Shown: positions 4,863-14,499 of the stretch, piece by piece | How positions within the stretch are numbered: position 1 is the first letter of the stretch | Layout: every line of letters starts with the position of its first letter | Virus record (IMG/VR): IMGVR_UViG_3300031379_000384 | Coordinates: 1-20,953 of that record | Strand: one strand, 5' to 3' | Length of the DNA: 20,953 nt | Origin: a virus | The notes under the pieces: generated by a model | Database searches by the model: none | Seen by the model: the letters and a program-made list of their open reading frames with translations, nothing else | Told to the model about the DNA's origin: nothing | Translations under genes and position numbers: made by a program

Positions 4863-4886
4863 TGCGAACAACCTCCGGTTGTTCGG

Positions 4887-4974
4887 GGCTGTTAGACTGT
4901 TCGGCTGTTAGGCTGTTAGGAACGACCAGCCGCCCCGCGCCCCAACAGTCGAACAGCCCAACAGTCCAACAGCC
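4887..4974. repeat. Octamer-array inverted repeat, copy 1
   Basis: Left arm 4887-4920 is four tandem 8-bp units of the form CTGTTNGN. Right arm 4941-4974 is four units of the complement (NCNAACAG). Aligned arms match at 29 of 34 positions, and most differences fall at the variable unit positions. The spacer (4921-4940) is GC-rich. The right arm touches the tape measure stop codon (4975-4977), and the array ends about 25 bp before the next start codon. As RNA from the - strand it would form a long imperfect hairpin. No T tract follows, so it does not look like a simple intrinsic terminator. Confidence 0.9.
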
Positions 4975-7311
4975 TCATCCAAACGACAGTTCCTGGCCCG
5001 CCTTGCGGGCGATCTTGGCGGTATTGCGGGCGGTCTCCTCGGTGGCTTTGGCTGTTCGCTCCTGGACGCTGCCCATGCCGAGGCCGAAGGCGGCCAGGGC
5101 ATTGAACGTGCCGGCCGTGGTCATCCCGCGAGTAACAACATCCGCCTGGCCGATCGCGTCCGTGACGCCGGCCAGCATCTTCTTGATCCGCTCGGCGACG
5201 TTCTCCGGCTTCTCGGGCCCTTCCCCTTCCTCGGCTTCGGCCCGTTGAGCACCCGCCTCGGCAATGGCGGCTTGCCATTCAGCTCTGGCCTTGGCGAGGG
5301 CATCCTCCGACGCCTTCAGTTGATCAGCGTACCGCTGTTTGCGGGCCTCGTTCTCGGCGTCGGCCATCTCGTCGATCGCCCGCAGTGTGCCGATGCGTTC
5401 CTGTTCGATGGCTTCCCGCTTCTGCTTGCGCTGCTGTTCACGCTCGGCCAGGGTGCGCTGCGCGTCGCGCTCGACCTGGGCGTTCCGCCGGGCCAGGTCC
5501 TCGTCCGCCATGCGGATCGCCGCCTCAACGTCGAGATCCTCGTCAAACAGGCCCATGAGTTTTAGCCAGCCCTTGGTCAGCAGGTTCTCGGCGGAATTCC
5601 ACGCCTTGGTCAGGCCGCCGGTGAATCGCGTCCAGGTGTTGGCCAGGAACGTCGTCGTCTCGACCCAGATCGCCTGCAGGCCCGCCCAGGCCTCGGCGAG
5701 TAAAGCCACCGCGCCGTAGAACGCATCCGTGGCCAGCGTCAGGAACCAGGTCTTGAAGTCGGTCCAGTAGCCCCTGAGCGCGTGCACGCCGCGCTGCCAT
5801 TCCAGCTTGAGCGTCAGCCAGAGGATTTTGGCCGCCAATGCGATGTTGCCGGCGGCCATCGCGTCACCGATGCCTTGCCAGGCTTTCAGCGCGGTCTGCT
5901 TGAGCGCATCGAACTTGTCCGCCAGCCAGCCGAGGGCTTTGGCGCCGGCGCCCGTCGCGTGAAGGATCCCGACCGCCAAGCCGACGACGCCCGCTGTGAC
6001 CAGGCCGATCGGTGACAGCAGCGCAGCGAGCACTGAGCCGAGCACACCGATGGCCGTGCCTACGCCCGTGATGATCGACGCAATGCCGCCGAAGACGAAC
6101 GACATGGCCGCACCGGCGACGCCGACGGTGATCAGCGCGCCGCCAACGAGACCGATCGCCGCGACCACCTTGGCCGCCGAGACGACCATCGCCTTGTTCT
6201 CCTCCAGCACCCGCCGCACATGCGCGGCGTAGGTCTTGATCGTCCTTGCGATGCGGGCGACGGGCTCAGCCAGTGCCTCACCCACGACCGACAGGGCGAC
6301 AATGGCCGACTGCTTGATCTGCCGGAAGCCGTGAGCGAGCGTGCCCGTCATTTTCTTATAGGCGGCCTCTGTCGCGCCAGCCCGATCAGCCATGACGGCA
6401 ATGTCTTCGGTGAAGCCCTCCATGTTCTTCAGGGCCGGCAGCACGCCTTTGAGGGCCCGGATGTTCGGGAACAGCTTGGAGATCGCGTCCGGCGGCAGTT
6501 TGCTGATCTTGTTGAAGACGCCAGCCAGGCCCTCCGACCTAATCGTGGCCGACGACATCTCGAAGCCGAGTTGCCGGGCATATTCGGTCGCTTCAGAAGC
6601 CGGTTTGAGGAAAGACGAGATGATCGCGTTGAGCGCGGTGACGGCGTTTTCGGTCTGGACGCCGTTGCGGGTCATCGTGGCCAGGGCGGCGCCCGCCTCG
6701 TCCAAGCCGACACCGGCGCTGGCCGCGATCGTGGCCACGTTGCCGATGCTGGGTGCGAGCTCGGCGAACGTGGTCTTGCCCCGCTTGACGATCGAGAAGA
6801 GCCAGTCGCTCACATCACCCGCCCGCTCGGCCGACAGGCCGTAGGCGTTGAGGACGGTGGTGATCGCATCGGCGGCCGTACCGGTGTCGGTGATGCCGGC
6901 CTGTGCGGCCTTGGCGGCCACGGCCAGCACCGACAGGGCGTGCTCGGCCGGCACCGAGGCCGACAGGATGTCGTAAAGGCCCTTGGCGAGCGTCTCGGTG
7001 GACTCGCCGAACTCGACGGACATGTCACGGATACCCTGGCGGAACCGGGCCATGTGCTTGTCCGGCTCGTCGAGCATGGTCGAGACGTTGGCCATCTGCT
7101 GCTCGAAGTCGGCGAAGACTTTTACTCCGGCCACCAGCGGCGTGGCGAACACCGCGCTGACCTTGGCGAGCTGCATACCGATCTGACGCACGGACGCACT
7201 GAAGGCCTTGAGCCTTCGCGATGCATTGCGCAGGCCCTTGACCAGCCGATTGTCGTGGGCATAGAGTTCAACGTAGGCCGCCCCCGCCCGGATGTTCCTG
7301 GCCGATGGCAT
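4975..7311 (-). CDS. Phage tail tape measure protein (TP901-like)
   Basis: 778 residues. The N-terminal 50 residues are helical and basic. Residues 55-350 match the tape-measure core, with a helix FADFEQQMANVSTML near 66-80, then alternating Ala-rich helices and GNVATIAASAGVGLDEAGAALATMT-type text around 190-213. Residues 380-455 form a long hydrophobic stretch with several potential membrane helices, typical of tape measures that contact the host membrane. Residues about 600-700 are a highly charged coiled coil (repeated E, R, K, Q, A). It sets tail length inside the tail tube and is ejected with DNA. At about 0.15 nm per residue the tail would be near 115 nm, a siphovirus size. Start: GGAG lies 8 nt before the ATG, held in a hairpin loop (7312-7332). 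Confidence 0.95.
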   Translation of the reverse strand: MPSARNIRAGAAYVELYAHDNRLVKGLRNASRRLKAFSASVRQIGMQLAKVSAVFATPLVAGVKVFADFEQQMANVSTMLDEPDKHMARFRQGIRDMSVEFGESTETLAKGLYDILSASVPAEHALSVLAVAAKAAQAGITDTGTAADAITTVLNAYGLSAERAGDVSDWLFSIVKRGKTTFAELAPSIGNVATIAASAGVGLDEAGAALATMTRNGVQTENAVTALNAIISSFLKPASEATEYARQLGFEMSSATIRSEGLAGVFNKISKLPPDAISKLFPNIRALKGVLPALKNMEGFTEDIAVMADRAGATEAAYKKMTGTLAHGFRQIKQSAIVALSVVGEALAEPVARIARTIKTYAAHVRRVLEENKAMVVSAAKVVAAIGLVGGALITVGVAGAAMSFVFGGIASIITGVGTAIGVLGSVLAALLSPIGLVTAGVVGLAVGILHATGAGAKALGWLADKFDALKQTALKAWQGIGDAMAAGNIALAAKILWLTLKLEWQRGVHALRGYWTDFKTWFLTLATDAFYGAVALLAEAWAGLQAIWVETTTFLANTWTRFTGGLTKAWNSAENLLTKGWLKLMGLFDEDLDVEAAIRMADEDLARRNAQVERDAQRTLAEREQQRKQKREAIEQERIGTLRAIDEMADAENEARKQRYADQLKASEDALAKARAEWQAAIAEAGAQRAEAEEGEGPEKPENVAERIKKMLAGVTDAIGQADVVTRGMTTAGTFNALAAFGLGMGSVQERTAKATEETARNTAKIARKAGQELSFG

Positions 7312-7332
7312 TGAAACATCTCCGATGTTTCA
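7312..7332 (-). promoter_or_regulatory. Stem-loop presenting the tape measure Shine-Dalgarno
   Basis: On the - strand the 21 bases before the tape measure ATG read TGAAACAT, CGGAG, ATGTTTCA. The 8-bp arms are perfectly complementary, the 5-nt loop contains the GGAG ribosome site, and the stem ends immediately before the start codon. The spacing from GGAG to ATG is 8 nt. The second arm also contains an out-of-frame ATG that would be paired in the stem. This could tune initiation on the tape measure gene, which must be made in low copy number; that role is inferred. Confidence 0.6.
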
Positions 7333-7425
7333 GGCTGTTGGACTGTTAGGCTGTTAGACTGTTGGGGAAACGATCCAACCGTCATCTTCCCCAACAGCCG
7401 AACGGTCTAACAGCCGAACAGTCTG
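7331..7425. repeat. Octamer-array inverted repeat, copy 2
   Basis: Left arm about 7331-7370 and right arm about 7386-7425 are built from CTGTTNGN units and their complement. The arms are about 40 nt, with differences mostly at variable unit positions and one T/C change inside a CTGTT core (AACGG in the right arm). The right arm is flush with the stop codon of the holin-like gene (7426-7428). The left arm shares two bases with the stem-loop that carries the tape measure ribosome site. The spacer differs from those of copies 1, 3 and 4. Confidence 0.9.
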
Positions 7426-7614
7426 CTACTTCTTCGCCATCGCCGCCCGGAATGACACGCCGGTCCAGGTGGCGATGAGGATGGCCAGGGTCTGAGCGAG
7501 CTTGTCGTCAATCAGGCCAGAGCTCCAGAAAAGCCCCAACGTCCCGGCCGCGATCATCCCGATGTACGTCTTCTTGCCGCTCAGAAACGCTCGGATCTGA
7601 CGCAGTGTCTCCAT
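7426..7614 (-). CDS. Small holin-like membrane protein
   Basis: 62 residues. The N-terminus is short and basic (residues 1-16, ending SGKK). A hydrophobic helix spans about 17-33 (IGMIAAGTLGLFWSSGL), then a short acidic turn (IDDK), a second hydrophobic helix at about 37-55, and a basic C-terminus (AAMAKK). Two helices with charged ends and this size fit small phage holins, which form pores in the inner membrane at lysis, but no experimental family match is claimed. GGAGG lies 9 nt before the ATG. The gene starts inside the reading frame of the upstream lipoprotein-like gene and lies just before the tape measure gene. No endolysin is adjacent, so lysis function remains an inference. Confidence 0.75.
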   Translation of the reverse strand: METLRQIRAFLSGKKTYIGMIAAGTLGLFWSSGLIDDKLAQTLAILIATWTGVSFRAAMAKK

Positions 7615-7801
7615 CGGATTGGACCTCCATCACCGTCTGTGGCTCGGATTCAGTGCGCACGATCTTGACCAGCACGAGGTCGCCCGTGGCGCACCCGGCA
7701 CCCGGCAAGGTGCAGGTCAGTGGCACAACCGGCCACAGGACCATCGAACGAACGATCCTTCGCACCTGTCTGCGTGCAACGCACAGGCAGATTCGCGTCA
7801 C
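7508..7801 (-). CDS. Small lipoprotein-like phage protein overlapping the holin-like gene
   Basis: 97 residues from a GTG start that overlaps the preceding stop as GTGA. AAGGAGG sits 7 nt upstream, the strongest kind of ribosome site, which argues that the frame is genuinely used. Residues 1-17 are basic, about 18-32 hydrophobic (MVLWPVVPLTCTL), followed by PGAGC, an imperfect lipobox with Cys near residue 37, then GDLVLVKI and a polar acidic tail. The last third (107 bp) overlaps the start of the holin-like gene in another frame. I recall similar small lipoproteins beside holin genes in related prophages; a spanin-like or outer-membrane role is possible. The C-terminal part inside the overlap may be poorly constrained. 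Confidence 0.6.
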   Translation of the reverse strand: MTRICLCVARRQVRRIVRSMVLWPVVPLTCTLPGAGCATGDLVLVKIVRTESEPQTVMEVQSDGDTASDPSVSERQEDVHRDDRGRDVGAFLELWPD

Positions 7802-8175
7802 TCGGTATCCTCCTTGATCGCGTCGGACGCCGGCTGGGTGGACGTGACATCGGGCCCCTGGTCAGCCTGCGTCGCCCCGGCCAGGTTCGCGCTTACGCCG
7901 TCAAGCTTGACGCTGGCCGTCCAGACAAAGCCGGTGCCGACGATGCCGTAGCCGTCCATCACGTAGCCGGGATTGATGAGCGAGCCCTGGCCCTGGAGCG
8001 CCGCCGACCGCTGGCCCAGATCGGTGACCGCCTTCTGGACGGCCGGCGAGACGACCTCGTCGATCATGCGGTTACTCGCCCGCTCGATCGGCTCGGTATT
8101 GACCGCACAGCCCGGGCTGAGAACCACCACGAACAGCGCCAACAAGACAGTCATCATTACCTTCCGTGGGAACAT
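7798..8175 (-). CDS. Phage-encoded lipoprotein
   Basis: 125 residues. The signal sequence is basic at the N-terminus (FPRK), hydrophobic at residues 7-20 (MMTVLLALFVVVL), then SPGC, a lipobox-like site without the preferred Leu at -3. The mature part has a helical segment (PIERASNRMIDEVVSPAVQKAV) and then a conserved-looking stretch with ALQGQGSLINPGYVMDGYG and ANLAGATQADQG. I recall this combination from prophages near the tape measure gene, with no assigned function. The start ATG follows AAGGAG with about a 10-nt spacer. It overlaps the end of the frameshift extension by 19 bp and the next gene by 4 bp. It could act at the outer membrane in lysis or in superinfection exclusion. Confidence 0.75.
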   Translation of the reverse strand: MFPRKVMMTVLLALFVVVLSPGCAVNTEPIERASNRMIDEVVSPAVQKAVTDLGQRSAALQGQGSLINPGYVMDGYGIVGTGFVWTASVKLDGVSANLAGATQADQGPDVTSTQPASDAIKEDTE

Positions 8176-8621
8176 GGTTTTAGACTCCTTCCTGTACTTG
8201 TGCCTTTGTCCACAAACACCCGTTTGAGGATCGACAGGTCATTAGTCCGGATGATGGGCTGGTCCGTTTGCCGCTGCTCCATCGGATTAAAGTCCGCCGG
8301 CGTGAACGGCCTGGTCTTCTTGGTATCCCGGTGAGCGTTGGCGATCATCGCCAGAATCGCCGACGTACGGGCCCAGTTGTCCTGCACCCTGGCCTCGGCC
8401 ATCGCCAGCAGTTCACGCAACGTCAGTGGTCCGGGATCGAGGCCGACGACGCCGGCAAGCTGCCAGACGAGCTGCCAGACATCGACGCGTTCAGTTCGGC
8501 TTCGATCCGGGCCTCCAGCTCCGGATCGTCGAGCCGCGTCTCGGCCACCTGCAGCGCCCGGGCCTCCAGCGCCTTGAGCTTGGTCAGCGCCTTGCTCAGA
8601 ACTCGACGCTTCGGCCCGGGG
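8157..8621 (-). CDS. Tail assembly chaperone, -1 frameshift extension (gpT-like part of gpGT)
   Basis: This frame is open from 8672 to its stop at 8157. It lacks a convincing start; the first in-frame candidates near 8420 are TTG and a later ATG without a ribosome site. Conserved-looking coding text begins before those candidates: VWQLAGVVGLDPGPLTLREL is encoded around 8408-8467 and overlaps the end of the shorter chaperone frame. The following LAMAEARVQDNWARTSAILA and the NAHRDTKKTRPFTPADFNP segment resemble the T domain of tail chaperones. I therefore annotate it as translated by -1 frameshift at the T TTT TTC site (8621-8627). The fusion would contain 97 residues of the upstream frame plus 154 of this one (251 in total). 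The shift point is inferred; the open frame and motif continuity are seen. Confidence 0.75.
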   Translation of the reverse strand, partial: PRAEASSSEQGADQAQGAGGPGAAGGRDAARRSGAGGPDRSRTERVDVWQLVWQLAGVVGLDPGPLTLRELLAMAEARVQDNWARTSAILAMIANAHRDTKKTRPFTPADFNPMEQRQTDQPIIRTNDLSILKRVFVDKGTSTGRSLKPCSHGR

Positions 8622-8911
8622 AAAAAATCCACGAGTTCCTCCAGCAGCGCGGTGGTCGCGTGGTCGATCGCGTCACCGGCCATCGCCCGGCCGAAGTCCT
8701 CGTCCGTGACCTGCCGGGCGTCGGCGTCGGGCTTGACCAGGCAGTAGATCACGTCGCACAGCAGCACCGGGTCGCTGACGATCCGCTCCAGCAGCTTGCC
8801 GTCCACCACGTCCAGCAGGTTCACATCGAGCAGCGAGCGAACGCGCTTGATCGCGTCCACGTTGACCGTGATCGTCCAAGTCCGGCCGTTGTTGTCCTGG
8901 AACGTTTTCAT
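8423..8911 (-). CDS. Tail assembly chaperone (gpG-like, unshifted product)
   Basis: 162 residues. The ATG follows GAGGG with a short spacer. Start MKTFQDNNGRTW, then INVDAIKRVR-type text (here VNVDAIKRVRSLL), a segment DPVLLCDVIYCL, DEDFGRAMAGDAID and LEELVDFFPGPKRR are recognisable as a phage tail assembly chaperone family. Such proteins bind the tape measure and recruit tail tube subunits. Gene order (tail tube, chaperone, tape measure) is the standard one. The C-terminal part after residue 97 is Ala/Glu-rich and ends in a low-complexity serine run (SMSGSSSGSLPASSAS), consistent with the zero-frame tail being less constrained than the shifted frame. A frameshift signal lies in codons 95-97. 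Confidence 0.85.
   Translation of the reverse strand: MKTFQDNNGRTWTITVNVDAIKRVRSLLDVNLLDVVDGKLLERIVSDPVLLCDVIYCLVKPDADARQVTDEDFGRAMAGDAIDHATTALLEELVDFFPGPKRRVLSKALTKLKALEARALQVAETRLDDPELEARIEAELNASMSGSSSGSLPASSASIPDH
8621..8642 (-). promoter_or_regulatory. Putative programmed -1 frameshift signal
   Basis: Codons GAT TTT TTC of the chaperone gene contain the heptamer T TTT TTC (8627-8621) in the exact X XXY YYZ phase needed for tandem -1 slippage. GGAGG (8642-8638) lies 10 nt upstream, the spacing at which an internal Shine-Dalgarno stimulates -1 shifting in bacterial dnaX. A GC-rich CCCCGGGCC follows directly. After the shift the new frame has no stop until 8157. Confidence 0.65.
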
Positions 8912-8920
8912 GACCTACCC

Positions 8921-9523
8921 TCATGGCGTACTATCGAAAAGGACACCGATCTTGCACGTAGCCGCTTCCGTGGCCCCCGTGCTGGCCCTAACCTTGTCGA
9001 CCGGATTGCCCGCCAGCGGGTTCGACTCTCCTGAGTCCGACGCCCACCAGTCCACCTCGTTCGCCGCGAGCTCAGCGGCATACAAACTCACGCTGCCCGA
9101 GTCCTGGAAATCGACGTGGAGGCGCTTGGTCCCATGGATCGCCAACATTTTCATGTTGTCGCCATCGAAATCCGCATCGATTTCCGTCTGCACGCTGGCG
9201 GTTACGGTGGTATCCTGCGCCGGCAACACCGTACCGGCGCCACCGCTGAAGGGGACGACGTTTCCCGCGACCGTGCCCACGGTCGCGCCGTACTGCACAC
9301 CGCCGTCCCAGTAGATGTCGATGACATCACCGGTGGTGATCCCGTGCCCTGCCGACAGCGTCAGATCGCCGGTGGTATCAGTCGTGCGCGCGGACAGCGA
9401 ACCCGATTTTGCGGCCGGCAACACCACTTCGTGGCTTTCCTGGCCTTCCGCCTGGCGACTGACGGTGGACTGGATAGAGATCCCGGCGATACTGACATTT
9501 GATGTAATCGAACCAATCGGCAT
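8921..9523 (-). CDS. Beta-rich virion protein next to the tail tube gene
   Basis: 200 residues. AAGGAG lies about 6 nt before the ATG, among the clearest ribosome sites of the operon, which suggests high expression. The protein is rich in Gly, Ser, Thr, Val and Asp with alternating beta patterns. It has no cysteine before the C-terminal ATCKIG motif, no signal peptide and no membrane segment. Visible segments are VLPAAKSGSLSARTTDTTG, LSAGHGITTGDVIDIYW and NMKMLAIHGTKRL. I do not have a firm family name; I recall similar proteins at this position in planctomycete-type prophages. Placement between tail tube and chaperone suggests a tail tube-associated or decoration protein. A second tail tube-like subunit is an alternative. 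Confidence 0.75.
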   Translation of the reverse strand: MPIGSITSNVSIAGISIQSTVSRQAEGQESHEVVLPAAKSGSLSARTTDTTGDLTLSAGHGITTGDVIDIYWDGGVQYGATVGTVAGNVVPFSGGAGTVLPAQDTTVTASVQTEIDADFDGDNMKMLAIHGTKRLHVDFQDSGSVSLYAAELAANEVDWWASDSGESNPLAGNPVDKVRASTGATEAATCKIGVLFDSTP

Positions 9524-9557
9524 CGTTGTCTCCTTTATGTTTACGATGCTACATTCA

Positions 9558-9971
9558 TCACACCCACGCCGGGGCTCGGGTCGAGTAGGTCGGCTTGGCC
9601 GTCACGCTGACGGTCATCGCCTCCTCCAGCGGCTCGTTGCGGGTGAAGTTGGTGATCGAGAAGTCGGCGTCGAGACCACTGCCACCTGCGCCATCCAGGA
9701 TGGCCAGGGCGATGGGCGTGTTGTTGAAGTATGCCTGCTGGATCGCGGTAAATCCGGCATCGCTGGTGTCCCAGATCATCTCGAACTCGACGCTGCCGTT
9801 CTTGAGGGTGGCCACCGTCGCCCGCCAGCCCTGGTTGCCCCGGGTGGTCACGTCCGCCTCGCCGGTCTCCAGGTTCAGCGTCACGTCCTTGACGTTGGTC
9901 AGCTCCGACGTGGCGGTACTACCAGCGGGCCCGTGGTAGAGCTTCGCCTCCATGCCTAACTTGATGGCCAT
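9558..9971 (-). CDS. Major tail (tube) protein
   Basis: 137 residues. GAGGAG lies 6 nt before the ATG. The N-terminus (MAIKLGMEAKLYHGPAG), the segment ELTNVKDVTLNLETGEADVTTR, the helix-forming AIQQAYFNNTPIALAILD and the closing beta strands with TVSVTAKPTYSTRAPAW are characteristic of phage tail tube proteins of the TP901/lambda gpV fold. It polymerises around the tape measure to form the tail conduit. Order is standard: tail completion gene upstream, chaperone and tape measure downstream. No membrane segment or signal is present. The length is typical of compact tube subunits. Confidence 0.88.
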   Translation of the reverse strand: MAIKLGMEAKLYHGPAGSTATSELTNVKDVTLNLETGEADVTTRGNQGWRATVATLKNGSVEFEMIWDTSDAGFTAIQQAYFNNTPIALAILDGAGGSGLDADFSITNFTRNEPLEEAMTVSVTAKPTYSTRAPAWV

Positions 9972-9981
9972 AACCGTCTCC

Positions 9982-10374
9982 TCATCTCACAGAACTGGCC
10001 CACATGCGGGGCAGTCGATCCTTGATCTTCTCCAACGCCGGTCCCATGAAGGCCCGGCGGTCATAACGCTGTCCCCGAAACCGTCCGCCGAACTCATGGG
10101 CCATCGCCGACGGGCCGACGATCGCATACGCCGGGCCGACGACCACACGCTGGGCCTGTTTTTCCACCGCGTACAAGATCGCGCGGCGCAGTTGCCCGCG
10201 TCGGGTTTTCGGTGGCGTCCCGGGCCGTGAGGGCTTCAGACTCCGCCGAATGGACCGGCGAGCGACCAGTCGGACGGCCGCTCCCGCGTGCCCCAGCGAT
10301 TCGATGTTCGCCCTCCGCAGTTGGCGAAGGACCTTGGGCACATCGTCTCGCGTGCGGATACCCATACCGACCAT
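9982..10374 (-). CDS. HK97 gp10-like head-tail/tail completion protein
   Basis: About 130 residues from the ATG at 10374, which overlaps the preceding stop as TGATG; a GTG at 10377 and an ATG at 10365 are alternatives. It is strongly basic. The N-terminal half is helical (DVPKVLRQLRRANIESLGHA, ARRSIRRSLK), followed by PGTPPKTRRGQLRRAI, the motif VVVGPAYAIVGPSAMAHEFGG, and a C-terminal RRAFMGPALEKIKDRLP. The P-G-x-P-P turn, VGP, HEFGG and final A-L-E-K helix are hallmarks of the HK97 gp10 / virion morphogenesis family, which act at the neck or tail terminator. It sits directly before the tail tube gene, as expected. It is very likely a structural or assembly protein; which neck position it takes is uncertain. 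Confidence 0.85.
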   Translation of the reverse strand: MVGMGIRTRDDVPKVLRQLRRANIESLGHAGAAVRLVARRSIRRSLKPSRPGTPPKTRRGQLRRAILYAVEKQAQRVVVGPAYAIVGPSAMAHEFGGRFRGQRYDRRAFMGPALEKIKDRLPRMWASSVR

Positions 10375-11681
10375 CACCCCGCCCCCATTCGCAGAAGCCC
10401 GTGATTATTACCCGGCCGCTGCTCGGCCCCGATGTCGCCCGACGGCCAGGCCCGGCCGATGGCCGGACTGATCGAACGCAGGCGATAATCGCCGTTGGCC
10501 GCGTCCACGAACCCGGGATCGTCGGCGATCACGTCGCCCACGCCGGGGGCCACGTTCTCGTAGCTCACGGTGCAGCTTGTGATCAGGTTGTTTCTCAGGA
10601 CGACGATCGGGCCGGCCGCTTCGTAGGCTTTCACGCCGATGGCGTAGTTATGGATGATGTTGTTCGCGGCCAGGGCAGATTGAGCACTGAAGAAGAGGCC
10701 CGCCTTGCCGCTGGCCTTGGCAGTTTCACTGCCGACAATCGTGCAGTGGATCACCGGCGGGTTGGACATGGACGACGTGTTGACCGCGTGATTGTCATTA
10801 TTCAACAGGCGGCAGAACTGCAGCAATCCCGCGCCGGTGTAGGGCGTACCGGCTCCATTGATGAATTCGCATCCCAATGCGTCCACCGGCCCGTATGCGC
10901 CCTGGATCATGAAGCCATCGAACAGGCAGTTCAGCGCGAGGCACGGATCCGATGCATACAGGTCGACGAAGTTGTTCCGACCCGCGCAGTTCACGAACAT
11001 CGCAGCGGAGATGTCGATAGCCTGTCCATTGGCACGGTTCTGCACCTGCACGTTCCTGAATACGTAGTAGAGCTGCCAGGACAGACTGCCCTTGGAAATC
11101 CCTGCGTAGCTGGTCCCGTCGCAGTCCAGACGTACGCGGTAGTCGTCGAACCGGGCATCGCTCGGCCAGATGTGTGCGTTGGCCTGGAAGAAGGCGGTAG
11201 CGCCGCCCTTCGTCTGGCGATAGCCCTCGACCACGATCGGCTGAGCGATCGTGCCCTTGGTCTTGAGGGTGATGATGGGCGCCCCGTTTGGCAGATAATC
11301 TCCGTCGCCCTTGATCCAGATCGTATCGCCCGGATCGACACAATCCGCGGCCTTCTGCGGCGTGGCGAAAGCACCGCCGATCGTCCAGGCCTGGTCGCTG
11401 CCGACGCCAGGAGCGGGAGTCACCGTGAGCCGGTCGTTCGGATCGTCAACATCCGTGATCTCGAAGATGTCCGTTCCGTGAATGCCGTCGCCTCGGGCAG
11501 CGATACGGATCGTGTCGTGACCGGCGCCCTGGTTGACGCCGGAGAGATTCGTGCCGACGGGCAGCTGGACGGTTGCGGTGCCGTCCGTGATCGCGCCGGT
11601 CCCGCTGACGATCATCGACTCGGACGAGCCGCTGTTGTTCGCCGAGCCGTTCTGAGCTGACACGTGATACACCAGCGCCAT
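10374..11681 (-). CDS. Right-handed beta-helix (pectate lyase-like) virion protein
   Basis: About 435 residues. GGGAGG lies 4 nt before the ATG at 11684 and 7 nt before the ATG at 11681; I chose the latter for spacing. A GTG at 11696 is also in frame. Residues about 15-105 form a beta-rich N-terminal domain. From about 110 onward there is FATPQKAADCVDPGDTIWIK, then repeated short turns with N, C and G (FVNCAG, CEFINGAG, VIHCTIVG, LAANNIIHN, VLRNNLITS), the signature of a parallel beta-helix. The end (ADDPGFVDAANGDYRLRSISP, then AIG, DIGA) is typical of choice-of-anchor-Q/polysaccharide-lyase-like proteins. Such folds occur in tail fibres, tailspikes and capsid decorations that bind or cut glycans. 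No catalytic residues can be assigned. Its place among connector genes is unusual. Confidence 0.8.
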   Translation of the reverse strand: MALVYHVSAQNGSANNSGSSESMIVSGTGAITDGTATVQLPVGTNLSGVNQGAGHDTIRIAARGDGIHGTDIFEITDVDDPNDRLTVTPAPGVGSDQAWTIGGAFATPQKAADCVDPGDTIWIKGDGDYLPNGAPIITLKTKGTIAQPIVVEGYRQTKGGATAFFQANAHIWPSDARFDDYRVRLDCDGTSYAGISKGSLSWQLYYVFRNVQVQNRANGQAIDISAAMFVNCAGRNNFVDLYASDPCLALNCLFDGFMIQGAYGPVDALGCEFINGAGTPYTGAGLLQFCRLLNNDNHAVNTSSMSNPPVIHCTIVGSETAKASGKAGLFFSAQSALAANNIIHNYAIGVKAYEAAGPIVVLRNNLITSCTVSYENVAPGVGDVIADDPGFVDAANGDYRLRSISPAIGRAWPSGDIGAEQRPGNNHGLLRMGAG

Positions 11682-12067
11682 CATCTGCCCTCCCACGGAC
11701 TCTCTACGGGCGGCGAGAGGTAGACGTACTGCTTGGTCTCCGGGTCCCAGCGGCCATGCAGGCGGCTGCCTCGCACCTCGTGTGCGATGACCTCACCGTC
11801 GATTTCCACCTCTACGGTTCGCAGGGCCACGTCGGGCTCTATCACGCTCGTGTTGCAGCGCGTGACCGTAGATCCGGGCGGCGGTTCGCAGTTGGTCAAG
11901 TTGCAGTCGATGAATGTTCGCGGCGCGCCGTCCCCGGGAAACAGTCGGACCCCTCGCTTCTTGCCGTCCTCGTCGATGGGGCTCGGCTGGCTGAAGTTGC
12001 AGCGACGGTACTCGCGGTCGAGTGCCGAAGGGCGCACCTGGCCTGAGAAGTTTCGGTTGGTCACCAC
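11681..12067 (-). CDS. Small Cys/Asn-motif phage protein, possible short beta-helix
   Basis: 128 residues from a GTG with AGGAGG 7 nt upstream; the start overlaps the preceding stop and the end overlaps the beta-helix gene start (ATGATGG). Repeated patterns C-N-x-S/T-x (RRCNFSQP, FIDCNLTNCEPPPGS, TRCNTS) resemble pentapeptide-like or short beta-helix coils. I recall this layout (NRNFSG near the N-terminus, then two CNL-type turns) in phage proteins of unknown function from several phyla. The last 30 residues (HGRWDPETKQYVYLSPPVE) are polar. There is no signal peptide. Together with the following gene it may form a beta-helix pair; function is not known. Confidence 0.7.
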   Translation of the reverse strand: MVTNRNFSGQVRPSALDREYRRCNFSQPSPIDEDGKKRGVRLFPGDGAPRTFIDCNLTNCEPPPGSTVTRCNTSVIEPDVALRTVEVEIDGEVIAHEVRGSRLHGRWDPETKQYVYLSPPVESPWEGR

Positions 12068-12279
12068 GCCAGGTCCTCCTGGGCGACAAGTCCATGGGTC
12101 CGTTGAGACAGGATGAGCATGCGCCGCAGGAGCGGATCCCGCTGGAGCCAGCGACGTTGCTTGGCTGCGGGAAGAGATGCGAAGGTCGGCAGAGCATCTG
12201 ACAGTCGCCCTGCGAGCTCATCAAGGAACGCTAATGCTCGCTGGTAATCCTGACTGCTCGTGCTGATCGTCAGTCGCAT
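12061..12279 (-). CDS. Small helical phage protein, unknown
   Basis: 72 residues. GGAAGG lies about 10 nt before the ATG, a weak but usable site. It is predicted largely helical, with a segment YQRALAFLDELAGRLSDAL, then AAKQRRWLQRDPLLRRMLIL, and ends AQEDLAW. It has no cysteine, signal or membrane helix. I do not recognise the family. Its end overlaps the next start by 7 bp and it lies 33 bp after the preceding gene, so it is embedded in the operon. Support is the overlap structure and operon position. Confidence 0.6.
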   Translation of the reverse strand: MRLTISTSSQDYQRALAFLDELAGRLSDALPTFASLPAAKQRRWLQRDPLLRRMLILSQRTHGLVAQEDLAW

Positions 12280-12312
12280 GAGAGTTTGCCCTTCCTCGGC
12301 GTCATCCTTCGC

Positions 12313-12729
12313 TTACTCCTCGCAATACACGGCCCAGCCGCCGCAGCGCCAGGCGGCACTGAGATGGATGGTCAACGGCTCGCCCGGCTCCGTTTGAAGC
12401 CAGGGCATGGACGGGTCTGCCGGCATCGGCAGGACGAAGCCACCCCGGTCGCCCACCGGAATCGGACCCGTCAATGCGGTTCCCGTATCCGCCGGGCCGG
12501 AGTAGAAGGTCACGTCCACCGCTTCCTCAGCCAGCAGACAGATCCCAAGCACACAGATCCGCTTGCCTGAAACGCCCGCTATGATCTCGTTGCCCTCGGC
12601 CGCGTCGCTGGCGGCATCAATAACCGCGCGTTTGACTTCGATGCCGCCGCCGGTGCGGACCAACAGTTCGCCGGTGGCTTCGTCGATCGCCACTGTCGCG
12701 GCCTGGATCCATCTGCGTTGAACAGCCAT
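12313..12729 (-). CDS. Small beta-sandwich virion protein
   Basis: 138 residues. The N-terminal part is charged and variable. From about residue 44 there is DAAEGNEIIAGVSGKRICVLGICLL, followed by beta strands with TFYSGPADTGTALTG, GFVLPMPAD and EPLTIHLSAAWRCGGWAVY. The pattern G-N-x-I-h-A-x-V-x-G-K-x-I-x-V-L and a closing L-x-L-S-A-A-x-x-x-G-G-x-x-x-Y is, from recall, common in small phage virion proteins of unknown role, standalone or fused to larger proteins. It may decorate the capsid or tail. The leader holds an AGCGAGCGAAGCGAGC block instead of a good Shine-Dalgarno, and an octamer-array repeat lies just upstream. Confidence 0.75.
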   Translation of the reverse strand: MAVQRRWIQAATVAIDEATGELLVRTGGGIEVKRAVIDAASDAAEGNEIIAGVSGKRICVLGICLLAEEAVDVTFYSGPADTGTALTGPIPVGDRGGFVLPMPADPSMPWLQTEPGEPLTIHLSAAWRCGGWAVYCEE

Positions 12730-12733
12730 GTCT

Positions 12734-12749
12734 GCTCGCTTCGCTCGCT
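12734..12749. repeat. 16-bp leader block shared with 13554-13569, copy A
   Basis: The + strand reads GCTCGCTTCGCTCGCT. The identical 16-mer occurs at 13554-13569. Each copy lies between an octamer-array repeat and the start codon of the next - strand gene, 5 bp from the ATG in both cases within a few bases. It replaces a recognisable Shine-Dalgarno at both genes. Confidence 0.8.
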
Positions 12750-12751
12750 TT

Positions 12752-12867
12752 CAGGCTGTTAGACTGTTGGGCTGTTAGGCTGTTCGGAAAGACGAGCCCC
12801 GCCGCGCCCCAACAGTCGAATAGCCGAATCTCCCAACAGCCGAACAGTCGAACAGCCCAACAGCCTG
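12752..12867. repeat. Octamer-array inverted repeat, copy 3 (asymmetric)
   Basis: Left arm 12752-12787 has four CTGTTNGN units. Right arm 12807-12867 has about seven complementary units, two of them degenerate (AATAG, AATCT). The arms are therefore unequal, and the longer arm could pair with the left arm in more than one register. The spacer (about 12788-12806) is closely similar to that of copy 1, including a shared GCGCCCC before the first right-arm unit. The right arm ends 2 bp before the stop codon (12870-12872) of the tail terminator-like gene. Confidence 0.88.
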
Positions 12868-12869
12868 AC

Positions 12870-13298
12870 TTATCGCCACACGCGATAAGTCACGGTCAGC
12901 ACGCTGGTGAACACCCGGTTCTGCTCCATGTGCTCGGCGGCGTAGATGGGAGTGTTCTCCGTTTTGACCCACATCGCCTCCGGCAGCCCTTCCAGCCGCT
13001 TGAACCGGAAGTGATCCGCGATCTGCTCCACCAGCGCCATCAGCGGGTCGAGCTCGGCCGAATCCCCGTTCTCGAACTTCTTCTGGATCGCGATGTCGAT
13101 CCGGCAATCGTATTGACTTCGCCCCCGGCCGGCCGTTTCGATCGCCATACCCTGGGGCACCACCGTCACATGCAGTGTTCCCATCTCCGGCAGGTCGAAC
13201 ACCGGTCGATAGTGCCGCTCGGCAGTGAACTCCTGACCGAACGAGCCGGCGTTCAGGCTGGCCACCACGGCATCGGCGATGTCAGTGATGACGGCCAC
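12870..13298 (-). CDS. Tail terminator-like (tail completion) protein
   Basis: 142 residues from a GTG start with GGAGG about 10 nt upstream; the preceding stop is 1 nt away. The N-terminus (MAVITDIADAVVASLNAG) is a helix, followed by beta strands with LPEMGTLHVTVVPQG, a central SQYDCRIDIAIQKKF, a helix DPLMALVEQIADHFR and a final pair of strands (QNRVFTSVLTVTYRVW). This order fits phage tail terminator / minor tail proteins of the lambda gpU type that cap the tail tube at the neck. Placement between head-tail joining and tail tube genes is right for that role. Family identity is from pattern memory, so a related connector protein is the main alternative. Confidence 0.75.
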   Translation of the reverse strand: MAVITDIADAVVASLNAGSFGQEFTAERHYRPVFDLPEMGTLHVTVVPQGMAIETAGRGRSQYDCRIDIAIQKKFENGDSAELDPLMALVEQIADHFRFKRLEGLPEAMWVKTENTPIYAAEHMEQNRVFTSVLTVTYRVWR

Positions 13299-13299
13299 G

Positions 13300-13548
13300 T
13301 CACACTTCCTCCCGGGCGATGCACGGCCGCGAGATGATCTTGTCGTGCAGCGAGCGGTTCAGCTTCAGCAGGTCGCAGGTCGTGCTCGTCAACTGGCGGA
13401 TCGCCTCCGTGTTGGCAGCGATGATCCGGTTGTTGGCCTCCAGGACGTCCAGCAGCTTGCGGATCAGCCAGATGACCACACCCAGCAGGACCACGGAGAA
13501 GCCCAGGAAGCCGTACTGCACCACGGGTTGGATCATCCAGTCTTCCAT
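13300..13548 (-). CDS. Small single-helix membrane protein
   Basis: 82 residues. One membrane helix at about residues 10-29 (VQYGFLGFSVVLLGVVIWLI), followed by a helix likely to be amphipathic or coiled (VLEANNRIIAANTEAIRQL) and a basic C-terminus (HDKIISRPCIAREEV). The layout is like BhlA-type holin-like proteins and other small phage membrane proteins, but no specific motif proves this. It lies among head-tail connector genes, unusual for a lysis gene, and a second holin-like gene exists at 7426. The leader carries the AGCGAGCGAAGCGAGC block and lacks a clear Shine-Dalgarno. It ends 1 nt before the terminator-like gene. Confidence 0.7.
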   Translation of the reverse strand: MEDWMIQPVVQYGFLGFSVVLLGVVIWLIRKLLDVLEANNRIIAANTEAIRQLTSTTCDLLKLNRSLHDKIISRPCIAREEV

Positions 13549-13553
13549 TTGTC

Positions 13554-13569
13554 GCTCGCTTCGCTCGCT
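13554..13569. repeat. 16-bp leader block shared with 12734-12749, copy B
   Basis: Exact second copy of GCTCGCTTCGCTCGCT, 5 bp upstream of the ATG of the single-helix membrane protein gene (- strand) and directly next to octamer-array copy 4. The two leaders also share the following CAGGCTGTT that begins the octamer array, so the duplicated unit is larger than the 16-mer. Confidence 0.8.
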
Positions 13570-13570
13570 C

Positions 13571-13660
13571 CAGGCTGTTGGGCTGTTCGGCTGTTAGACT
13601 GTTGGGAGTCTTGCCCGCCCACCCCAATAGCCGAACGGCCTAACAGTCGAACAGTCCGAC
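13571..13660. repeat. Octamer-array inverted repeat, copy 4, entering the upstream gene
   Basis: Left arm 13571-13606 has four CTGTTNGN units. Right arm about 13622-13660 has four complementary units with two decayed cores (AATAG, AACGG). The spacer is short (about 13607-13621) and C-rich. Unlike the other copies, this one overlaps a coding region: the stop codon and last residues of the head-tail joining gene (13640-13660) are made of repeat units. Confidence 0.88.
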
Positions 13661-14025: not shown

Positions 14026-14123
14026 GTAGTCCGTAGTCTGTAGTCTGGAGTCCGTAGCGAAGGATCCTGCAAGCACCTTCCGCCTTGTCCGGCTACAGAC
14101 TCCGGACTCCGGACTACAGACTG
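14026..14123. repeat. Heptamer-array inverted repeat
   Basis: Left arm 14026-14057 is built of 7-bp units of the form GTAGTCY (one GGAGTCC variant). Right arm 14093-14123 is built of the complement (GACTAC/GACTCC type). Aligned, 25 of 31 positions agree. The spacer is 35 bp. The right arm ends 4 bp before the stop codon of the cement gene (14128-14130) and the left arm ends 2 bp from the start codon of the head-tail joining gene. Unit sequence and length differ from those of the octamer family, yet architecture and placement are the same. Confidence 0.88.
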
Positions 14124-14469: not shown

Positions 14470-14499
14470 GATTCATTGCTCCTCAAGCCGTAAGCCTCA

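Follow-up and report, generated by a model that had tools for sequence, protein, structure and literature searches.

The window analysed here is the complete IMG/VR record IMGVR_UViG_3300031379_000384 (20,953 bp), most of which is a tailed-phage late operon, read from the minus strand and encoding terminase, portal, a protease-capsid fusion, cement, a head-tail joiner, tail tube, and tape measure protein (TMP). Five hairpins of roughly 90-120 bases, whose arms are tandem arrays of units of 7 or 8 letters, interrupt this operon. They were named J1 (heptamer) to J5 in the order of transcription, and each falls between a stop codon and the following start on the minus (coding) strand. Relatives of the capsid protein were present in 41 of 294 Planctomycetota genomes, and a planctomycete is therefore the most likely host.

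Arrays were sought by repeat, TRF, and stem searches, and the coding-strand RNA was folded and compared with dinucleotide shuffles (z). These searches recovered the four octamer-arm copies (GRCT-GTT-N; period 8) at the sites given in the original prediction, and these are not due to chance: J5 at 4887-4974 (-59.7 kcal/mol, z -7.7), between the TMP gene (stop 4975) and a 263-aa gene; J4 at 7331-7425 (-50.8 kcal/mol, z -7.7), between a 62-aa gene (stop 7426) and the TMP gene; J3 at 12751-12868 (-69.6 kcal/mol, z -8.1), between 142-aa and 138-aa genes; and J2 at 13571-13660 (-38.6 kcal/mol, z -2.7, the weakest of the five), which overlaps the head-tail joining gene at its 3′ end (stop 13640) and ends before an 82-aa gene. 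A fifth copy had been overlooked: J1, at 14028-14122 (z -6.4), has a like design with heptamer arms (GTAGTCY / RGACTAC) and lies between the cement (stop 14128) and head-tail joining (start 14023) genes. The predicted layout of about four units around a 15-20 bp spacer needed adjustment, as the spacer measured 17-24 nt in three copies and J3 has 4 units on one side, 7 on the other, and a longer inner stretch. The arms begin 0-1 nt past the stops at 4975, 7426, and 12870, within the predicted 0-2 bp, with the stop at the high-coordinate end of these minus-strand genes, whereas the J2 arm begins within the last codons of its gene and replaces them. The hairpin sites are not the only large gaps in the operon, as had been supposed, since hairpin-free gaps of 30-34 nt are also present at 14470-14499, 12280-12312, and 9524-9557. 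J3 and J5 are 86% identical over 88 nt, loop included. Neither a T run nor a terminator-like site was found at any of the five hairpins, which agrees with the earlier view that termination is unlikely. An Rfam search returned no match at gathering scores, sub-threshold microRNA matches being put down to chance, and blastn with the J3 hairpin against named phages and plasmids found no match.

The comparison of orthologous junctions, proposed together with the original prediction, yielded relatives with and without copies. Two contigs from one sample (L037 and L145) are colinear with the record at 85-93% nucleotide identity over most of the aligned length, and they are without a hairpin at every junction covered (J5 by L145 only, the others being J1 to J4). 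The junctions are 0-14 nt long in these contigs, and the empty sites read TGA-GGCACCC-ATG, TAGATG (J2 site), TAGGCAAATG, TAG-14 nt-GTG, and TGA-9 nt-GTG. A third relative, L146 (TMP 79% identical in amino acids), carries hairpins at both J4 and J5; at J4, its arms and loop have diverged, the folding is retained (z -6.4), and the leader at the start codon is homologous. The simplest history is that hairpins were present before the split between the record and L146 and were lost in the L037/L145 line, although recombination or parallel gain may account for the pattern instead. These genomes are mosaic: the tail genes of L037 are close to those of the record, yet the capsid protein of L037 (77%) falls in another group. 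On the capsid-protein tree, the hairpins are patchy, with 5 changes, at least 4 of which are forced by well-supported branches.

Three further hairpins are inserted in frame, without stop codons, in loops of the portal protein. The octamer copy of L081 and the heptamer copy of L227 occupy one portal loop, between EADQV and DGI.FDEFG, which measures 13-25 residues in other phages; the heptamer copy of L088 lies in another portal loop, where the sister phage L018 has none. The peptides encoded by the three inserts are unrelated. At the loop that holds the L088 copy, a different REP-like palindrome (GGCGTCTCGCC ... GGCGGGACGCC) stands in frame in L054 (about 5120-5180); tolerant loops of one protein thus gather palindromes of several kinds. 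Homology was suggested (p 0.004) between the loops of L018 and L088, one of them being reversed in orientation, but the pair had been chosen post hoc and was kept as a lead only. The in-frame portal copies make it hard to explain the hairpins by a need to separate cistrons.

A detector of stems with periodic arms, run over 2.44 Mb of related loci, gave 58 non-redundant matches, of which 33 had period 7 and 25 had period 8; a few were false. Matches within L055 and L300 genes were rejected as G+C-rich coding sequence, and a call at 1529 inside an L014 gene was traced to a gene-calling error; in L081, the same hairpin immediately precedes a start codon. Copies measure about 70-120 bp, with tandem units separated from their inverted counterparts by a spacer of about 15-45 nt. 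In the record, the units are GRCT-GTT-N (8 nt) or RGACTAC (7 nt). The octamers of related phages follow the consensus C-T-G-T-T-N-G-R, with N free and a purine at position 8 in 127 of 127 units, which bears out the claim that a CTGTT core is kept while N positions vary. The frequent heptamers are AGRCYNN, so that GRCY is common to both frequent types; the heptamers GATTGAT and GAGTGCA are without it. A second heptamer array (CACCCTT) comes after each of two GATTGAT-type hairpins in L162 (4347-4444 and 12684-12765). In the record (J3/J5), L015, and L162, some copies at separate junctions of a genome have their loops as well as their arms in common.

When a viral collection was scanned for the hairpin pattern, six of the seven contigs found bore other genes of this phage family. 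All octamer matches of the G003 bin (17/17) fell on a 29.7-kb phage contig, and all those of the G002 bin (6/6) on a single contig that carries the same phage genes. An origin from host REP sequences is unsupported, since the octamer arrays of G003 are confined to its phage contig; a few AT-rich heptamer hairpins occur outside that contig. Octamer matches were scattered in G001 (Pirellulales), and 400 kb of other planctomycete chromosomes gave one weak hairpin. Genomes of Saprospiraceae, Lewinella, Prevotellaceae, and Aminicenantes also contain octamer arrays with units like GTCTGTTA, which seem to follow this design in other lineages; genomes of these unrelated phyla (G005, G006, G008, and G009) hold tens to hundreds of CTGTTNGN arrays, some of them hairpin-forming.

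Most of the detected hairpins lie at gene junctions; this was already so in the first set of related loci, though called intergenic sequence makes up only 15% there. Twenty-five of 40 junction hairpins sit at three junction types, with different units in different phages: cement|joiner in 8 phages (J1 and seven others), the junction preceding TMP in 8, and TMP|next gene in 9. By contrast, none of the 87 junctions between portal and major capsid protein, which mostly overlap, has one. Relative to short non-overlapping junctions as the control, and with statistics that ignore phylogenetic relatedness, the odds ratio was 6.7 (p 3e-7) in the set that first revealed the pattern and 2.4 (p 0.28, not significant) in a later independent set. 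This preference argues more strongly than any other observation for a role where genes made in different amounts adjoin, but harm done by hairpins at other positions, upstream of highly expressed genes, could explain it just as well.

Such a role would be played in the late mRNA, where the junction hairpins might serve as RNase III-type substrates or exonuclease barriers between cistrons, a possibility that deserves consideration but that we hold only tentatively. Under the same tentative scheme, they would separate messages for the high-copy capsid from those for the low-copy connector and TMP and would block translational coupling. The strong predicted folding fits this role, as does the predicted stem of at least 20 base pairs in the transcript, which an RNase III site needs. 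With few exceptions, the junction copies are flanked by co-directional genes and sit just past a stop and just before a Shine-Dalgarno sequence and start, and the J4 hairpin persists in L146 despite its diverged arms and loop. The recurrence at the three junction types likewise agrees with the earlier proposal that the hairpins set the levels of structural proteins, a proposal weakened by the non-significant independent sample. However, about 87% of relatives, close ones included, have no hairpin at the corresponding junctions, and copies within the portal reading frame would cut the portal's own message. Selection for a stem in the mRNA also predicts more G-U pairs than A-C mismatches on the coding strand, whereas the opposite direction was observed, with 30 G-U against 44 A-C in the first set and 47 against 68 over 46 hairpins (p 0.06). 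In the record, own arms scored 20.2 and foreign arms 21.3. Own arms outscored foreign arms in some other phages, which is explained by units that vary from hairpin to hairpin and by pairing being a condition of detection. Without a G-U excess or, in the record, an own-arm advantage, the stem results from inverted copies of one unit, with no fine tuning seen; the original suggestion that the arms were selected for pairing is not supported.

The rigid core C-T-G-T-T-N-G-R, combined with arm pairing that does not favour own arms, would also suit arrays that act as DNA sites, their units being bound by a host or phage protein in regulation, replication, or packaging; the opposed octanucleotide arrays of Geobacter have been proposed as sites for a global regulator (PMC2700814). 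We regard this as improbable, given that the unit sequence, and even its length, changes between related phages at one site, that most relatives are missing the arrays, and that no promoter-like enrichment was seen. It is also conceivable, though doubtful, that the hairpin is kept at fixed gene borders across a phage family while its unit is wholly rewritten, both arms changing together from 8-mer to 7-mer. The junction element would then be conserved in structure and free in sequence, written by a process that makes inverted tandem arrays, and this too we consider unlikely.

The sequences between hairpin and start codon show further palindromes. J4 and J5 are each followed by a perfect 21-nt palindrome centred on GGA(G), 0-2 nt before the start and on the minus strand: CGAACAACC-GGA-GGTTGTTCG at 4865-4885, which ends 2 nt before the ATG (4862) and has a Shine-Dalgarno-like GGAG in the middle, and TGAAACATC-GGA-GATGTTTCA at 7312-7332, immediately before the TMP start codon. 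The central GGA(G) is likely the ribosome-binding site. Palindromes of this kind precede 4 of 34 starts near hairpins, a count that includes J4, filed as "not near" by the strict detector, versus 4 of 1485 other starts (Fisher, about 1e-5). In L146, the homologue of the J4 palindrome is imperfect, with two double (compensatory) changes. One palindrome-making process may have produced both the mini-palindromes and the hairpins. Perfect palindromes that have the GGA of the ribosome-binding site in the middle and lie 0-4 nt upstream of starts were also seen in L227, L015, L146, and L158. Other leaders on the minus strand are one containing GCGAGCGAAGCGAGC (12730-12750), between J3 and the start codon, and GGAGCGAGCGAAGCGAGCG (13549-13570), between J2 and the start codon; a GCGAGCGAAGCGAGC-like leader between hairpin and start recurs in L018, L054, L088, L103, and L079.

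The GGA-centred palindromes beside several copies are what fold-back copying would give, and the units differ between sites and phages; both would be expected if each hairpin grew in place, by replication slippage and fold-back copying, without movement between sites. The same units and shared loops at several sites nevertheless need copying between sites, and growth purely in place appears very unlikely.

Contrary to the original statement that no element of this architecture had been described, the general design is known. Hairpins of the STRR type in cyanobacteria, for example between hupS and hupL, consist of 7-bp tandem units in intergenic sequence, with roles proposed in transcript stability or translational coupling (PMC2670836). 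J1 and 33 of the 58 detected hairpins have period 7, the other four copies of the record having period 8, and the intergenic position and the capacity to form a hairpin agree as well. STRR hairpins belong to cyanobacterial chromosomes and have another unit, whereas the copies described here are mostly in phages, comprise 7- and 8-mers, and lie partly in frame; their capsid relatives are in Planctomycetota rather than a cyanobacterial host, and their units are CTGTTNGR or mostly of AGRCYNN types. In Geobacter metallireducens, the octanucleotide GTTGCTYN occurs four times in tandem per site, with sites paired on opposite strands at a variable distance (PMC2700814). These paired, opposed arrays of tandem octamers are alike in layout, but they are chromosomal, were proposed as regulator-binding sites, have another unit, and in some cases carry insertion sequences. 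Rickettsia palindromic elements (RPE) are short palindromes, many of them in frame in protein genes (PMC10969869), as are the three stop-free portal copies. RPE differ in being about 150 bp long and chromosomal, in encoding a conserved peptide (the L081, L227, and L088 peptides are unrelated), and, as far as described, in lacking arms of tandem units. The phage hairpins thus resemble STRR and Geobacter arrays in general design but are not filed under STRR, Geobacter-type pairs, or RPE, because defining features are missing.

REP/REPIN elements (GTAG and CGTC families) and MITEs are small, mostly intergenic, patchy, and thought to be mobilised non-autonomously (PMC3733652). REP/REPIN elements are single palindromes of 20-40 bp with a tag, often with a RAYT transposase, and have no tandem units; the octamer copies are without a terminal tag, and the GTAG of J1 lies inside its repeats. 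The tandem TAACTGA heptamers known from Beggiatoaceae, cyanobacteria, and Bacteroidetes are intergenic, often stand immediately upstream of starts, and are patchy among close relatives (PMC4679880), but they are direct repeats, almost never inverted. The tandem repeats of Borgs are recent, variable among relatives, nearly absent from the host, and both genic and intergenic (PMC9879509), but they are perfect direct repeats without inverted pairs.

Presence and absence at orthologous junctions, copies sharing loops, in-frame copies, two unit lengths at the same sites, and confinement of octamer arrays to the phage contig in one host genome bin were all observed. Movement or renewal of elements explains the empty sites, shared loops, in-frame copies, patchiness, and phage confinement, and of the roles originally listed, that of a REP-like mobile element has the most support. 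Several points weigh against mobility. The pooled odds ratio for the three junction types (5.0, p 1e-6) goes beyond tolerance of short non-overlapping gaps, and losing all five copies in the L037/L145 lineage would be unusual for unlinked insertions; mobility does not by itself account for the uneven choice of junctions or for this loss. No target-site duplication was visible in five filled/empty comparisons, in which the flanking bases also differ, and a scan of 20 record proteins turned up no transposase, the host genome not having been searched for RAYT. A loop core common to copies (GGAA...GCGCC) scored above shuffles, but array letters had leaked into it, and it was not relied on. With our confidence evenly divided, we propose that the hairpins are small non-autonomous palindromic insertion elements of Planctomycetota phages and not fixed control signals. 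New copies would arise from existing ones by transposition of the REP/MITE type or by template switching, and they would land widely but survive where they are least harmful, at non-overlapping cistron borders and in tolerant protein loops. Once transcribed, strong hairpins may affect the expression of neighbouring genes, which would be a consequence and not the cause of their presence.

Two features of the record lie outside the hairpins. Host-like genes on the plus strand (295-1965; glutathione synthetase and DUF5698/DUF2179) adjoin the phage operon, which suggests a prophage end. A 200-aa gene at 8913-9561 has no Pfam match and is missing in the otherwise colinear L037.

Hairpins of tandem 7-mers between bacterial genes have been reported for years. 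Compact phage genomes that offer filled and empty sites, in-frame copies, and two unit lengths make mobility and function testable against each other, and the formation of inverted arrays becomes testable in a small genome.

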